Below are positions 3,369 to 31,991 of a stretch of 64,000 bases of DNA, piece by piece. The notes under the pieces were generated by a model that did not search any database, had not been told where the DNA came from, and was given only the letters and a program-made list of their open reading frames with translations. Both the position numbers and the translations under genes were made by a program. The DNA is from Jannaschia seohaensis (GTDB lineage: Bacteria; Pseudomonadota; Alphaproteobacteria; Rhodobacterales; Rhodobacteraceae). Every line of letters starts with the position of its first letter. The first letter of the stretch is position 1. The DNA lies in contig NZ_UETC01000001.1 of the NCBI RefSeq assembly GCF_900116765.1, positions 682,001 to 746,000 of the forward strand. Direction: 5' to 3'.

Positions 3369-4294
3369 GGTTCGCCCTCCTGCAACGGGACCGGCTCGGT
3401 CCCGATTGAAATCAAGTGAGCTCGTCTGGATTCCTTAACCGTTGCGGGGATCCCGGGTACTCGTTCAAACGCAAGACTCTTGGGGAGACCCTCTGACCTG
3501 CCAAACCAAAATGTGTCAAAACTTTAACACATCGTTAACCTTCATGTTTTTGTGGCGGATGTCCACTTCTTTGTACAATTTTCGTGCAAGAGAATGTTGC
3601 GGTCAAAAAAACCTTTCTATGCATAGTTTTAAAGGTGGTGGCCCGAAGGTGGCCTGCGCCATGCTGGCTTTGGGGGCTGATTCGCCTCGCTCTGGATTAT
3701 AGTATTGTATGCAAGGGCGAAACAATCGGAGGCCGGAACCACCCGATCGGTTGGAAACGCGAGGCGCTCGCGTCCGCTGACGGTGCGCGCTGCGGGACAG
3801 GCAAAGGTTAACGAAGGGACCCCTTTCGAGCGCAGTTGACGACCGACGCGCCGTGGCGCGAGGCGGTGCGCCTACTCGGCTCGGCTTGGCCTCGAGCGCG
3901 GCGGTGGCACCGGTGGCCGCAGTTCCGGGAAGAGGGCCGGAAGCGGGGAATGATCGGGCGCCATCCGTCTGACCTGTGCAAGATTTTCCGCCGTTTCGAG
4001 AGGGATCCGCCAGAGGGCCGTCGTAATGAGGCGGGCCAATCCGAATCCGTGGATCGATCTCGGAAGGGGTGGTCGTTGCTTACCCGTCCCGGGCGGGAGA
4101 CGCCGGCGTCTTTGCCTTCCGGCGCTCGCAGGCCCGCTCCATGCCCGGACAAGATCGTGCGGCACGGAAGCGGCCCGTTGGCCCGCGCCGTCAGGGAGAT
4201 CGGTTCGACCTCGGCGGCGGGGAATGCGGTGCGCGATGACGCCGCGTCTGGTCCTGCGGGCGCGTGGGTAGACCGTCCGCGCGCCCCACGGCTC
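3369..4294. other. 926-bp intergenic region, no gene seen
   Basis: This gap lies between the start of the repeat-protein gene and the stop of the DUF2125 gene, both on the minus strand. Positions 3500-3640 are clearly richer in A and T than the surroundings and probably hold the promoter of the repeat-protein gene. Positions 3700-4294 are GC-rich, but the open frames there lack recognisable domains and ribosome binding sites, so I call no gene. Confidence 0.6.
3512..3531 (-). promoter_or_regulatory. 20-bp palindrome overlapping a TTGACA -35 box
   Basis: The sequence TGTGTCAAAACTTTAACACA is symmetric at 16 of 20 positions. On the minus strand it contains a consensus TTGACA (3519-3514) about 145 bp before the TTG start of the repeat-protein gene. 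The matching -10 (TCAGAG, 3496-3491) is weak, which would suit a regulated promoter. An operator role is inferred from position and symmetry only. Confidence 0.4.
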
Positions 4295-25609: not shown

Positions 25610-25623
25610 TTGATCGGTATCAA
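25610..25623. promoter_or_regulatory. Perfect FNR/FnrL-type box upstream of ppk2
   Basis: TTGATCGGTATCAA matches the FNR-family consensus TTGAT-N4-ATCAA at every defined position. It ends 57 bp before the ppk2 start, a distance that fits activation by an FNR-type regulator. It is the only perfect match I noticed in the window. Confidence 0.65.
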
Positions 25624-25680: not shown

Positions 25681-26544
25681 ATGAACGAACAGACCCCTGT
25701 GACCGGTGGCACGCCCGCCCGCGACGCGGCCCGGACCGAGAGCGCGCATTATCCCTACAGCCGTCGCCTGGGCCGTGCGCCCTATGAGCGCGAGAAAGCC
25801 GCGCTCCAGGTCGAGCTTTTGAAGGTGCAGCAGTGGTTCCAGGCGACGGGCCAGCGCTGCGTGATGCTGTTCGAGGGGCGGGACGCGGCCGGCAAGGGCG
25901 GCACGATCAAGCGCTTCACCGAGCATCTGAACCCCCGGGCGGCACGCGTCGTGGCGCTCAACAAGCCCACCGAGGAAGAGCGCGGGCAGTGGTTTTTCCA
26001 GCGTTATGTCAAGCACTTGCCGACGAGCGGCGAGATCGTTCTCTACGACCGCTCCTGGTACAATCGCGCGGGCGTCGAGCGGGTCATGCGCTTTTGCGAG
26101 CCGACCGAGTATCTGGAATTCATGCGCCAGACGCCGGAATTCGAGCGGATGCTGACCCGGTCGGGCATCCGTCTCTACAAATACTGGTTCTCGGTCACCC
26201 AACGCGAGCAGCGCCGCCGCTTCACCTCGCGGGAGACCGACCCGCTCAAGCAGTGGAAACTGTCGCCCATCGACCGGGCCTCCTTGGACAAATGGGACGC
26301 CTATACCGAGGCGAAGGAGGCGATGTTCTTCTACACCGACACCGCCGACGCGCCGTGGACGGTGATCCGTTCCGACGACAAGAAGCGGGCGCGGCTGGCC
26401 TGTATGAAGCATTTCCTCTCGACCCTCGACTACCCTGGGAAGAACCCGGAGGTGGCCACGCCGCCCGACCCGCTGCTGGTCAAGCGGCCGGGCCACGAAA
26501 TCCACGGGGCGGAGCACGTGCTGTCGGCGCCGCTGGCCGATTAG
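25681..26544 (+). CDS. ppk2: Polyphosphate kinase 2
   Basis: A 287-residue PPK2 of the single-domain class. The Walker A region EGRDAAGKGGT is at 65-75 with Lys72, the Walker B/lid motif LYDRSWYNRAG starts at 121 with Asp123, and KYWFSVTQREQRRRF is also typical. The enzyme transfers phosphate between polyphosphate and ADP or GDP. The subclass cannot be fixed by eye. The RBS GGAGG lies upstream of ATG 25681. A perfect FNR-type box 57 bp upstream suggests control by oxygen. The gene is monocistronic and followed by extragenic repeat copy B. Confidence 0.92.
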   Translation: MNEQTPVTGGTPARDAARTESAHYPYSRRLGRAPYEREKAALQVELLKVQQWFQATGQRCVMLFEGRDAAGKGGTIKRFTEHLNPRAARVVALNKPTEEERGQWFFQRYVKHLPTSGEIVLYDRSWYNRAGVERVMRFCEPTEYLEFMRQTPEFERMLTRSGIRLYKYWFSVTQREQRRRFTSRETDPLKQWKLSPIDRASLDKWDAYTEAKEAMFFYTDTADAPWTVIRSDDKKRARLACMKHFLSTLDYPGKNPEVATPPDPLLVKRPGHEIHGAEHVLSAPLAD

Positions 26545-29054: not shown

Positions 29055-29714
29055 TCACAGGCGCTCGGCCAGGAATCGGCGAAACGGCATCAGGAGTTCG
29101 AACCGCTCGGTCAACGCGGCGACGACGCCCTCGCCGCTTTCGCGCCATCCCTCTGCCAATGGCAGGCCGAGCGCCAGGGACTTTCGCCTGAGCAGGTCGC
29201 CATGGATGTGGTCCGGGTCGTAAGGCTTGGGCACGCGCTTGAGCGGCTCCGGCCCGATCTCGGCCAGATGCCCGCCCGAGGCGTCGATAATCTCGGTGAG
29301 CCGGTCGCCCCAGCGATCAACCATGGCCCGGTAGCGGGTGAGACCCTCCTTGTCGAAGCCGGGCGTGCCGCAGCCGACGAAGGTCCGGTCCGGCTCGATC
29401 CCGAAATAGAAGGCCGGCGCGAGTGAGTCGGCATCGCCGGACGACCAGAGCATCGCCAGCATCGTCTTGTAGGGCGACTTGTCCTTGGAGAACCGCACGT
29501 CGCGGTTGATGCGAAAGACCTTGCCGGTATGGGCATCGCCGGTCAGGCGCGACAGCTCTTCGGCCATGATTTCGGCCAACAGCTTGGCGGGCGCCTCGAT
29601 GTCACGCTTCCACGCCTCTTTGCGCGGCTCGAACCAGTCCTTGGAGTTGTTGCGCGCCAGATCGCCATAGAACGCCTGCGCCCGGTCGAGCATCTCGGTA
29701 AAGCCATCCGACAT
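29055..29714 (-). CDS. DUF2461 / TIGR02453 family protein
   Basis: A 219-residue protein of the DUF2461 family. The hallmark segments are FYGDLARNNSKDWFEPRKEAW, VFRINRDVRFSKDKSPYKTM and YFGIEPDRTFVGCGTPGF. It is cytoplasmic and has no known function. The start at 29714 gives MSDGFTEML, usual for the family. It probably shares a transcript with the MFS gene 26 bp downstream. Confidence 0.88.
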   Translation of the reverse strand: MSDGFTEMLDRAQAFYGDLARNNSKDWFEPRKEAWKRDIEAPAKLLAEIMAEELSRLTGDAHTGKVFRINRDVRFSKDKSPYKTMLAMLWSSGDADSLAPAFYFGIEPDRTFVGCGTPGFDKEGLTRYRAMVDRWGDRLTEIIDASGGHLAEIGPEPLKRVPKPYDPDHIHGDLLRRKSLALGLPLAEGWRESGEGVVAALTERFELLMPFRRFLAERL

Positions 29715-29918
29715 CCTTGTCCCCTCGCCAGCCGCGCAGCGTAGGATGGCGGCGGAGACGCGCATTTCCAACTGAAATGGTGGACACGGCCGCGCGCTGC
29801 GCTTTGCCGCAGGCTCGGGCATTGGGGAGAGGCGTTCCCTTGCCCGCTGGCGTGTTGCTGCTTTGGGGCAGGTGCGGCGCGTCTGATCTGGCCGGTTCAG
29901 GTCAGCCCTTTGCCTCGG

Positions 29919-29947
29919 AAAAAAGAGGCCGGACGCGAAGTCCGGCC
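29919..29947 (-). terminator. Rho-independent terminator
   Basis: A perfect 8-bp GC-rich stem, GGCCGGAC (29947-29940) with GTCCGGCC (29934-29927), 5-nt loop, then a run containing six T on the minus strand (29924-29919). It ends the candidate small RNA and any read-through from the response-regulator gene. Confidence 0.9.
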
Positions 29948-30001
29948 CAGTCCAACAGGGAGGTTGCGTCCGATAGACCGCGGACGCCGCGGTATCTTTC
30001 G
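29919..30001 (-). ncRNA. Candidate small RNA with anti-Shine-Dalgarno loop
   Basis: A complete small transcription unit on the minus strand between the response-regulator stop (30080) and the DUF2461 gene start. A promoter (TTGACG at 30037-30032, 18-nt spacer, TATAGT at 30013-30008) predicts a start near 30001. The RNA would have hairpin 1 ACCGCGG-CGT-CCGCGGT (29993-29977), a short hairpin CAAC-CTCCCT-GTTG whose loop is complementary to a Shine-Dalgarno sequence, and a terminator GGCCGGAC-TTCGC-GTCCGGCC followed by TCTTTTTT (29947-29919). About 80 nt. The loop sequence suggests pairing to ribosome binding sites, as in known alphaproteobacterial sRNAs. Confidence 0.68.
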
Positions 30002-30007
30002 AGTATA

Positions 30008-30037
30008 ACTATAACGCCCGGGTTCCCCTAACGTCAA
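30008..30037 (-). promoter_or_regulatory. Strong sigma-70-type promoter for the small RNA
   Basis: TTGACG (30037-30032) and TATAGT (30013-30008) on the minus strand, 18 nt apart (17 nt if TTATAG is used). It lies downstream of the response-regulator stop, so it does not serve that gene. Confidence 0.65.
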
Positions 30038-30079
30038 TTTGCGCTAACTGGAGAATCCCCCGCCGATGTGTTTCCCTCG

Positions 30080-30766
30080 TCACGCCATCAGACGGTAACC
30101 GCCGCTCTCGGTGACCAACAAACGGGCGTTGGAGGGATCGGGTTCGATCTTCTGGCGGAGGCGGTAGATGTGGGTTTCCAGCGTGTGAGTCGTGACACCG
30201 GCATTATAGCCCCAGACCTCGTGCAGCAGCACGTCGCGGGCCACGGTGCCGTCCCCCGCGCGGTAGAGGAACTTGAGGATATTCGTCTCTTTCTCGGTCA
30301 GGCGAATCCTCTTGTCGTCCTCGGTGATGAGCGTCTTCATCGACGGCTTGAAAGTGTACGGCCCGAGCTGGAAAACGGCGTCCTCCGATTGCTCATGGGT
30401 GCGGAGCTGGGCGCGAATCCGGGCCAGAAGGACGGGGAATTTGAAGGGCTTGGCGATATAGTCGTTGGCGCCCGCATCCAGGCCGAGGATCGTGTCCGCA
30501 TCGGTGTCGTGGCCGGTCAGCATGACGATCGGGCACTTCACGCCGGACTTGCGCATCAGACGGCACAGCTCCCGCCCATCCGTGTCGGGCAGGCCCACAT
30601 CCAGCACCACGAGGTCGTAGATCTGCTCCTTGGCGCGGGACATGGCGCTGGCGCCCGAGTCGGCTTCGAACACGTCGAATTCTTCGGTCATCACCAGCTG
30701 CTCCGCCAAAGCGTCGCGCAGGTCGTCGTCGTCATCCACCAGAAGGATCTTCTTGAGGTTAGCCAT
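30080..30766 (-). CDS. OmpR/PhoB-family response regulator
   Basis: A 228-residue two-component regulator. The receiver domain (1-120) has the acidic cluster Asp11-Asp15, phospho-acceptor Asp56 (LVVLDVGLPD), Thr84 and Lys106 (IAKPF). The C-terminal winged-helix DNA-binding domain ends with THTLETHIYRLRQKIEPDP. No histidine kinase lies beside it, so it is an orphan regulator here. The promoter would lie in the 187-bp divergent region before ribA. Target genes are unknown. The ATG at 30766 gives MANLKKILLVDDD, typical of receiver domains. Confidence 0.93.
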   Translation of the reverse strand: MANLKKILLVDDDDDLRDALAEQLVMTEEFDVFEADSGASAMSRAKEQIYDLVVLDVGLPDTDGRELCRLMRKSGVKCPIVMLTGHDTDADTILGLDAGANDYIAKPFKFPVLLARIRAQLRTHEQSEDAVFQLGPYTFKPSMKTLITEDDKRIRLTEKETNILKFLYRAGDGTVARDVLLHEVWGYNAGVTTHTLETHIYRLRQKIEPDPSNARLLVTESGGYRLMA

Positions 30767-30953
30767 CCCGGGTCTCCAGTCTTCGGTTGCCATAGTCGTG
30801 CCGCATGCGGAGGCCGTCGCCAAGCGCCGGGGCGCGGGTCTCACGGCTGCTTCACGGGCACGTGTCGCCAAGCCGGGATTTGTTTCATATGCAGGCCGGG
30901 GCGCGCCTAAGCTGCGTCCCATTGTTACAGGATCTGACATGCCAGGGGGTGCC

Positions 30954-31991
30954 ATGCTGGGCCCGACCGCTACGGAACGCGCCGCGCGCGCCCGCACCGA
31001 CCTGCGGCTCGGTCTGCCGATCGCGGTGGGGCCGCTCGTGCTGGCCGCGGCCGAGACGCTACGGGGCGAGCGGCTGGAGGCGCTGCGCGCGCTGGGGCCG
31101 CTCACGATCGCGCTGACGGGGCGGCGTGCGGCGACGCTGAAGGCGCGCGCCTATGACGGCGACATCGCGCGGGTGCGCGTGCCGGAGGGGGCGGATATGA
31201 CCTGGCTGCGGGCGCTGGCGGATCCGGCCTTCGATCTGCGCGTCCCGATGAAGGGCCCGCTCACCACGCTGCGCGCGGGCGACCCGACCCCCTGGCGGAC
31301 GGGGATCGCGCTGGCCAAGGCGGCCCAGGTTCTGCCCGCCGTGATCGGGGTCGAGGCGGAGGCGCCCGAAGGGCTCACGCGGCTGCCCGCGACGCTGCCC
31401 TATGCGGAGGTGCCCCCCACCGAAGTGGCCGCGGCCCGCCTGCCGATGCTGGCCGGCGCGGGCCGCCTGCACGTCTTCCGCGAGGGCCGGGGCGGGGAGG
31501 AACATTACGCCGTCGAGATCGGCGCCGTCGACCGTGCGGAGCCCGTGCTGGTGCGGCTCCATTCGGCCTGCTTCACCGGCGACGTGCTGGGGTCGCTCAA
31601 ATGCGATTGCGGGCCGCAGCTGCACGGGGCGCTGGACGCCATGGGGGCCGCGTCGGGCGTGCTGCTTTATCTCAACCAGGAGGGGCGGGGGATCGGGCTG
31701 GCCAACAAGATGCGCGCCTACGATCTGCAGGACCAGGGCTTCGACACGGTGGAGGCGAACCATCGGCTGGGCTTCGAGGATGACGAGCGGGATTTCCGTC
31801 TGGGCGCGGCGCTGCTGCGGCGCATGGGGATCACGCGCATCCGGCTGATGACGAACAATCCGCGCAAGATCGCGATGATGGAAGGGCAGGGCATCGAGGT
31901 GGTGGAGCGAGTGCCTCTGCATGTCGGGCGGCGGGCGGAGAACGCGGCCTATCTGGACGTCAAGCGGACCAAGTCGGGGCATCTGGAATGA
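30954..31991 (+). CDS. ribA: GTP cyclohydrolase II with N-terminal extension
   Basis: A 345-residue protein whose C-terminal about 200 residues are GTP cyclohydrolase II, the first step of riboflavin synthesis (GTP to 2,5-diamino-6-ribosylamino-pyrimidinone phosphate). The zinc cysteines are in HSACFTGDVLGSLKCDCGPQ and the active-site motif is NQEGRGIGLANK. The N-terminal about 140 residues are an extension not found in E. coli RibA (196 aa); they lack visible DHBP-synthase (RibB) motifs. ATG 30954 has AGGGGG upstream; ATG 30939 in frame is also possible. It overlaps the L,D-transpeptidase gene by ATGA. Confidence 0.9.
   Translation: MLGPTATERAARARTDLRLGLPIAVGPLVLAAAETLRGERLEALRALGPLTIALTGRRAATLKARAYDGDIARVRVPEGADMTWLRALADPAFDLRVPMKGPLTTLRAGDPTPWRTGIALAKAAQVLPAVIGVEAEAPEGLTRLPATLPYAEVPPTEVAAARLPMLAGAGRLHVFREGRGGEEHYAVEIGAVDRAEPVLVRLHSACFTGDVLGSLKCDCGPQLHGALDAMGAASGVLLYLNQEGRGIGLANKMRAYDLQDQGFDTVEANHRLGFEDDERDFRLGAALLRRMGITRIRLMTNNPRKIAMMEGQGIEVVERVPLHVGRRAENAAYLDVKRTKSGHLE

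Follow-up and report, generated by a model that had tools for sequence, protein, structure and literature searches.

In a 64,000-nt stretch of a Rhodobacteraceae genome (hereafter the window), the minus-strand locus directly 3′ of the response-regulator gene cenR is, judged by its covariance match, the gene for the small RNA (sRNA) SorX. The explanation that best fits our sequence comparisons, and one that we consider quite probable, is that SorX lies behind cenR with an H-type pseudoknot and a trans-acting core, and that within the genus it has, at least partly, its own promoter. The RNA family, which is stress-related and occurs in purple bacteria and their relatives, was already known and the locus is a further member; since the RNA is known, finding the gene itself is ordinary. 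In the literature searched, which did not extend to the primary paper on SorX by Peng et al. (2016), no paper was found that names SorX together with a pseudoknot or with CenR. Any claim of novelty for the pseudoknot or the promoter is conditional on that primary paper, and SorX and CenR are linked here as a gene pair.

The SorX gene behind cenR

The locus had been predicted as an unnamed sRNA gene with an anti-Shine-Dalgarno-like core. The covariance search supplied the name: Rfam RF02784 (SorX) gave a full-length match at 29921-29994 on the minus strand (70.1 bits against a cut-off of 46.6; E 4e-15 in a scan of the 64-kb window; model positions 1-73 of 73), which was the sole Rfam match in the window at gathering score, and the core itself is nearly invariant in 71 aligned loci. 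Every element of the original prediction was located on the minus strand as claimed. There, from 42 nt past the cenR stop codon, the order is TTGACG-N18-TATAGT, two 5′ stems, CCTCCCTGTTGGACT and an intrinsic terminator, and an sRNA length of ∼75-80 nt is supported. The fold of the whole 119 nt is only mildly better than that of shuffles (z −1.55; 13 of 200 shuffles equal or better), so folding energy alone leaves the RNA unproven and it is the Rfam covariance match that proves it. The features, with S1 and S2 the two stems of the proposed pseudoknot and L1 and L3 its loops (all from the gapless fit), are:

30083..30766, minus strand: response-regulator gene, orthologue of R. sphaeroides RSP_0847 = CenR by domains and identity
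30022..30037, minus strand: degenerate 16-nt box TTGACGTTAGGGGAAC, which holds the −35 first predicted and aligns with the genus box TTAACCTTACGTTAAC
30008..30013, minus strand: TATAGT, the −10 hexamer first predicted, 14 nt before the structured 5′ end
30002..30007, minus strand: TATACT, −10-like, at the position shared in the genus, 8 nt from the pseudoknot
29921..29994, minus strand: SorX sRNA (RF02784), inferred 5′ end ∼29995 and 3′ end ∼29919
29990..29993, minus strand: S1, 5′ strand ACCG
29989-29988, minus strand: L1, 2 nt
29981..29987, minus strand: S2, 5′ strand GCGTCCG
29977..29980, minus strand: S1, 3′ strand CGGT
29976-29973, minus strand: L3, 4 nt
29966..29972, minus strand: S2, 3′ strand CGGACGC, followed by AA and then the core
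29949..29963, minus strand: conserved core, with CCUCCCU as the anti-Shine-Dalgarno-like stretch
29926..29948, minus strand: intrinsic terminator stem-loop, then T run

The core CCUCCCUGUUGGACU is near-invariant among the aligned loci, and its CTCCCTG columns are invariant in all 71 alignment rows. The same is not true of the CTCCCT hairpin that had been proposed to present the core in its loop. The minimum free energy (MFE) fold of the window does draw, besides a 5′ hairpin, a CAAC/GUUG hairpin of 4 bp that exposes CUCCCU, as predicted, but a hairpin of at least 4 bp can form in only 15 of 83 loci and was rejected as a conserved element. In nested folds CCUCCCU is moderately open, with a median unpaired probability of 0.70 (at least 0.7 in 40 of 83 loci). 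The strong terminator with a T run was borne out by a 9-pair stem and T run at 29948-29926; in the 71 rows 92.2% of its cells are paired, and six of eight pairs are changed on both sides somewhere.

The upstream regulator carries receiver and winged-helix domains, and the SorX core begins 116 nt past its stop codon on the same strand. Passages in PMC9275681 identify RSP_0847 as CenR, which is essential and regulates envelope and division; the text on CenR in that source makes no mention of SorX. The SorX match C4:2598225-2598299 in genome G051 (locus L096) adjoins the published SorX RNase E site at 2,598,224. Because the two positions coincide, we took L096 as the reference; it is almost certainly the R. 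sphaeroides SorX, with the RSP_0847 orthologue as its regulator. The window's regulator shares 83% identity with the orthologue in L096, the locus taken as published SorX, and 83-89% (best segment) with those of the 80 named relatives kept.

These 80 loci were picked by cenR alone, as the best 80 of 592 candidates, and 63 of them have a SorX core at most 500 nt downstream of cenR (61 by a rule of at most two mismatches plus two added by hand). Among the 17 misses is L040, where the contig ends and just 47 nt of downstream sequence are left. In the same genus, the core stands behind cenR in 19 of 20 genomes, the present one included; L119 (genome G205) is the only one of the 20 without a core within 400 nt of cenR. 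A search of 198 family genomes gave SorX matches at E ≤ 0.001 in 188 and above the cut-off in 157, frequently with several copies. A second match in the present genome (L002:1501-1574, plus strand; contig C17:101844-101917 of G000; 57.1 bits, over the cut-off) has the same core and terminator and lies downstream of a gene that is LysR-like by eye. No pseudoknot could be fitted to this copy, which may also be 3′ UTR-derived.

Promoter region and biogenesis

In R. sphaeroides, SorX is reported to be processed from a transcript that it shares with RSP_0847 and that starts at an RpoHI/II promoter (passages in PMC3320616, PMC6238624 and PMC9438474). RSs2461 is, like SorX, described there as an RSP_0847 co-transcript (PMC3320616), and RNase E is stated to yield the 75-nt SorX from a 116-nt precursor (PMC6238624). 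We think it unlikely that SorX in the window is likewise only a processed piece of the cenR mRNA, beside which the promoter-like hexamers are incidental. Such an origin would follow the published route, and no terminator turned up in a scan of the interval from the cenR stop codon to SorX, which leaves room for processing of cenR read-through RNA and makes "self-contained", as the gene had been called, too strong a term. The spacing between cenR stop and core is also below 50 nt in 9 of 63 loci, so that those nine have no room for a promoter past the stop codon. In the window, the scan of 29400-31000 gave a single sigma-70-like site, TTGACG-N18-TATAGT (30037-30008, minus strand), where shuffles average 0.2, but such hexamers are no better than chance in 64 loci of the family (3 of 64 at shuffle p ≤ 0.05, the chance rate), and a conserved sigma-70 site was rejected at that level.

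Other signals argue against incidental hexamers. Aligned with relatives, the shared hexamer is the adjacent TATACT and not TATAGT: among 19 genus loci (the window plus 18), 17 have TANNNT at a fixed place, 41-44 nt ahead of the core, and in 18 it precedes S1 by 6-9 nt, often with a CtrA-like box above it. This 16-nt box, TTAACCTTACGTTAAC (TTAAC-N5-GTTAAC), is perfect in 6 of the 19 loci, and 11 match TTAACNNNNNGTTAAC within two mismatches where 0.29 would be expected, far above shuffles; as read from the sequence, the window's TTGACGTTAGGGGAAC differs from TTAACNNNNNGTTAAC at 3 of 11 defined positions. TTAACCTTACGTTAAC fits the CtrA consensus TTAA-N7-TTAAC as quoted in PMC4046655. Perfect TTAAC-N5-GTTAAC is listed 9 times in the genome (8 distinct sites), compared with one for the reversed pattern. 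By eye, the open reading frames (ORFs) beside these sites did not amount to a clear CtrA regulon, and we therefore call the genus box just CtrA-like. One of the 9 listed places is the palindrome TTAACACATCGTTAAC at 3524-3539 of the window, 171 nt from the start of a repeat-rich ORF on the other strand.

Outside the genus, 18 of 63 loci carry a perfect FNR box (0.035 expected). Of the 18, 7 are named Ruegeria, so that these loci are not independent events; in 39 of the 63 family loci no FNR box was found within one mismatch. Among the 16 perfect-box loci with a pseudoknot, the distance from the box centre to S1 is 43 nt in 12 and 44, 49, 49 and 51 nt in the others, and this fixed distance, too, argues against processing as the only route. 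Since a 41.5-bp position is described as almost optimal for Fnr-dependent promoters (in passages of PMC5398030), the 43-nt distance gives a predicted RNA start 1-2 nt before S1 in those 12 loci. Also against processing alone is an FnrL ChIP-seq site reported for R. sphaeroides in the putative promoter of RSs2461 = SorX, where regulation is not shown (passages in PMC4263372). Near SorX in the window there is no FNR box with up to one mismatch, and the best in L096 has two, a match expected by chance. Elsewhere in the window, a perfect FNR-type box, TTGATCGGTATCAA, lies at 25610-25623, shortly before an ORF starting at 25681 on the plus strand.

Autoregulation by CenR through TGA-N8-TGA (the motif given in PMC9275681) was rejected as there was no clear excess: exact matches were found in 2 of 63 family loci against 1.7 in shuffles and in 0 of 19 genus loci, and matches within one mismatch numbered 30 in the 63 family loci against a mean of 20.4 and a maximum of 28. 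We consider a promoter between cenR and SorX likely in the genus; to this extent the original prediction holds, and what fell away is the conservation of its hexamers as such. An own promoter in the genus and an RNase E cut in R. sphaeroides would make SorX one RNA reached by two routes, according to lineage. In our reading of L096 the RNase E cut falls ∼3 nt before S1; for the window and the 12 FNR-box loci, the start is predicted 1-3 nt ahead of that stem. Most simply read, the pseudoknot would define the mature RNA.

A predicted 5′ pseudoknot

The 5′ hairpin that had been predicted is present in the MFE fold of the window, but the relatives favour another structure and suggest that the 5′ end of SorX is a small H-type pseudoknot rather than a plain hairpin. 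S2 is the only 5′ stem before the core that the Rfam model and RNAalifold draw. S1 was seen in the alignment: its loop holds the 5′ strand of S2, and the 3′ strand of S2 comes after S1. A loose definition of the pseudoknot fits 76 of 83 loci, where 20 whole-sequence shuffles gave 14.4 on average and at most 21, and a pseudoknot without a gap between the stems fits 74 of the 83. In these 74 gapless fits, for which L1 was limited to 1-4 nt, L1 is 1, 2 or 3 nt long in 32, 36 and 6 loci and L3 is 4 nt in 53. The gapless fit fails in nine loci (L005, L018, L032, L041, L045, L046, L051, L061 and L081). Under the looser fit the window prefers other pairs (S1 of 6 bp and S2 of 5 bp), and its nested MFE fold pairs CCGCGG/CCGCGG instead.

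The published R. sphaeroides SorX (L096) fits the same pseudoknot. Of the 30 SorX loci that scored best in the family search, 20 have the core in the stored orientation; each of these fits the pseudoknot and is linked to cenR (L096 belongs both to these 20 and to the 83). Nine of the other ten look alike by eye, unscored.

Both stems appear to be kept by compensatory change, as two interleaved helices of a pseudoknot would be. On 71 rows, 83.1% of the S1 cells and 90.3% of the S2 cells are paired. With fixed MAFFT columns, S1 has at least 3 bp in 61 of 71 rows, against a mean of 41.0 and a maximum of 53 in 5000 permutations in which the S1 5′ strand was exchanged between sequences. In rows not selected on S1, the stem is present in 68 of 76 (mean 49.9, maximum 60; 5000 permutations). 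Neither permutation control removes relatedness. For S1 alone, 0 of 500 shuffles reach the observed pairing, doubly changed cells or covariation score; the observed number of S1 pairs changed on both sides is reached by 87 of 500, and that of further pair types by 136 of 500. S1 is short and C/G-rich, and sliding it by −3 gives a covariation score of 0.200 versus 0.194, yet only 41% versus 83% of cells are then paired. In the fixed columns only the innermost S1 pair changes often on both sides (19 rows, against 1 and 0 for others). This pair is G-C in 46, C-G in 17 and U-G in 4 of 67 unique domains, and it changes 11 times on the cenR tree (74 rows, selected for S1 fit). An independent-pair sign test for S1 on that tree, with rows again selected for S1, gave just three supported pairs, too few for significance, and we draw on the tree for the number of changes alone.

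That both stems form at once is a prediction of this model, and conservation of both strands would look similar if S1 and S2 were alternative hairpins of a switch. Each stem is possible alone, with a computed energy in the window of −12.5 kcal/mol for the S2 hairpin and −2.6 kcal/mol for that of S1. Against a switch, a weak S1 could hardly rival S2. The stems also follow each other directly in 73 of the 76 loose fits, where 0-2 nt were allowed, and together with the short L1 and L3 this is textbook H-type geometry. We regard a switch as improbable.

In the pseudoknot model, SorX in the genus would be at least partly a primary transcript, made from a TANNNT −10 with an activator box around −34 and starting 1-3 nt before the pseudoknot, close to the 5′ end that RNase E leaves in R. 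sphaeroides. The pseudoknot would cap the 5′ end, protect the RNA and hold the core open. SorX would then act in trans with Hfq, its CCUCCCU core pairing with purine-rich translation-initiation regions and blocking translation, the way SorX is reported to act on potA in R. sphaeroides. With only slightly better than even confidence, we propose for the Rhodobacteraceae as a whole that the compact pseudoknot sets the mature end of SorX whichever way this end arises, by RNase E in R. sphaeroides, from an FNR-type promoter behind cenR in many genera and from a CtrA-like promoter in the window's genus, and that the inputs of SorX have been switched among stress, oxygen and the cell cycle with its place behind cenR unchanged.

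To our knowledge, few trans-acting bacterial sRNAs have a conserved pseudoknot. If the structure is true, SorX would be another, family-wide and with covariation that is easy to test. The loci would also form a natural series for how 3′ UTR-derived sRNAs shift between mRNA processing and an own promoter.

Comparison with known sRNAs

Among the closest known systems is SorX of R. sphaeroides (RSs2461, from the 3′ UTR of RSP_0847/cenR), which shares the neighbour, the kind of terminator and the fitted pseudoknot, and whose core is nearly the same (GGATC where the window has GGACT). Unlike R. sphaeroides SorX, the window has a predicted promoter after cenR, and for its mature 5′ end the prediction is a transcription start in place of an RNase E cut. 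As summarised in passages of a review (PMC9438474), R. sphaeroides SorX depends on Hfq, reacts to singlet oxygen and represses the translation of potA. In the present genome, TIGR01187 gave 133 matches, none over the cut-off, and there are too many ABC ATPases to name a potA orthologue.

SorY of R. sphaeroides (RF02651; L146) contains a 16-nt stretch, ACCUCCCUGUUGGACU, identical to the window's, and both RNAs end in a terminator. It is reported to have its own promoter (passages in PMC6238624) and differs in having a nested 5′ hairpin by eye and no pseudoknot fit.

The alphaR8 RNAs (suhB/MmgR, RF00519; SisA-D in Caulobacter) have, as described in PMC12559287, the same CCUCCCU core between a 5′ hairpin and a terminator. 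They differ in the core UUUCCUCCCU, a weak simple hairpin and the usual linkage to an FGase gene (PMC12559287); in the window the 10-mer UUUCCUCCCU is replaced by GCAACCUCCCU, the last seven of its ten. It is improbable that the window's RNA belongs to alphaR8/MmgR/SisA and not to SorX proper, with SorX, SorY and alphaR8 as one superfamily: the three have in common a CCUCCCU core followed by a terminator, and the window gives sub-threshold cross-matches, but these, at 38.2 bits for SorY and 22.6 for suhB, are far below the cut-offs of 111 and 41, the neighbour is cenR and not an FGase gene, and the genome has no alphaR8 match at E ≤ 0.001. Beside the genome's three FGase genes, an alphaR8 copy was sought by eye and rejected, as no CCUCCC with a terminator was seen. 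Of 61 family genomes, 27 have a suhB/alphaR8 match at E ≤ 0.001, which in 8 exceeds the cut-off (L171-L182). Genomes G033 and G054 have such a match and no SorX match in the family search, and it is possible that one anti-Shine-Dalgarno-type sRNA has been replaced by another there.

For SorX as we read it, two analogies bear on function. Caulobacter SisA, with the same CCUCCCU stretch, is described in passages of PMC12559287 as repressing a large regulon, and we infer that the window's core may be used as in SorX and SisA. The enterobacterial Hfq sRNA RydC works alike, as a trans-acting RNA with a pseudoknot beside its seed, and that pseudoknot is reported to be needed for stability (passages in PMC4337610). 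The RydC seed is described as 5′, whereas the SorX core is 3′ of the pseudoknot, and no sequence relation is known between the two; by analogy with RydC, the SorX pseudoknot may have a protective role.
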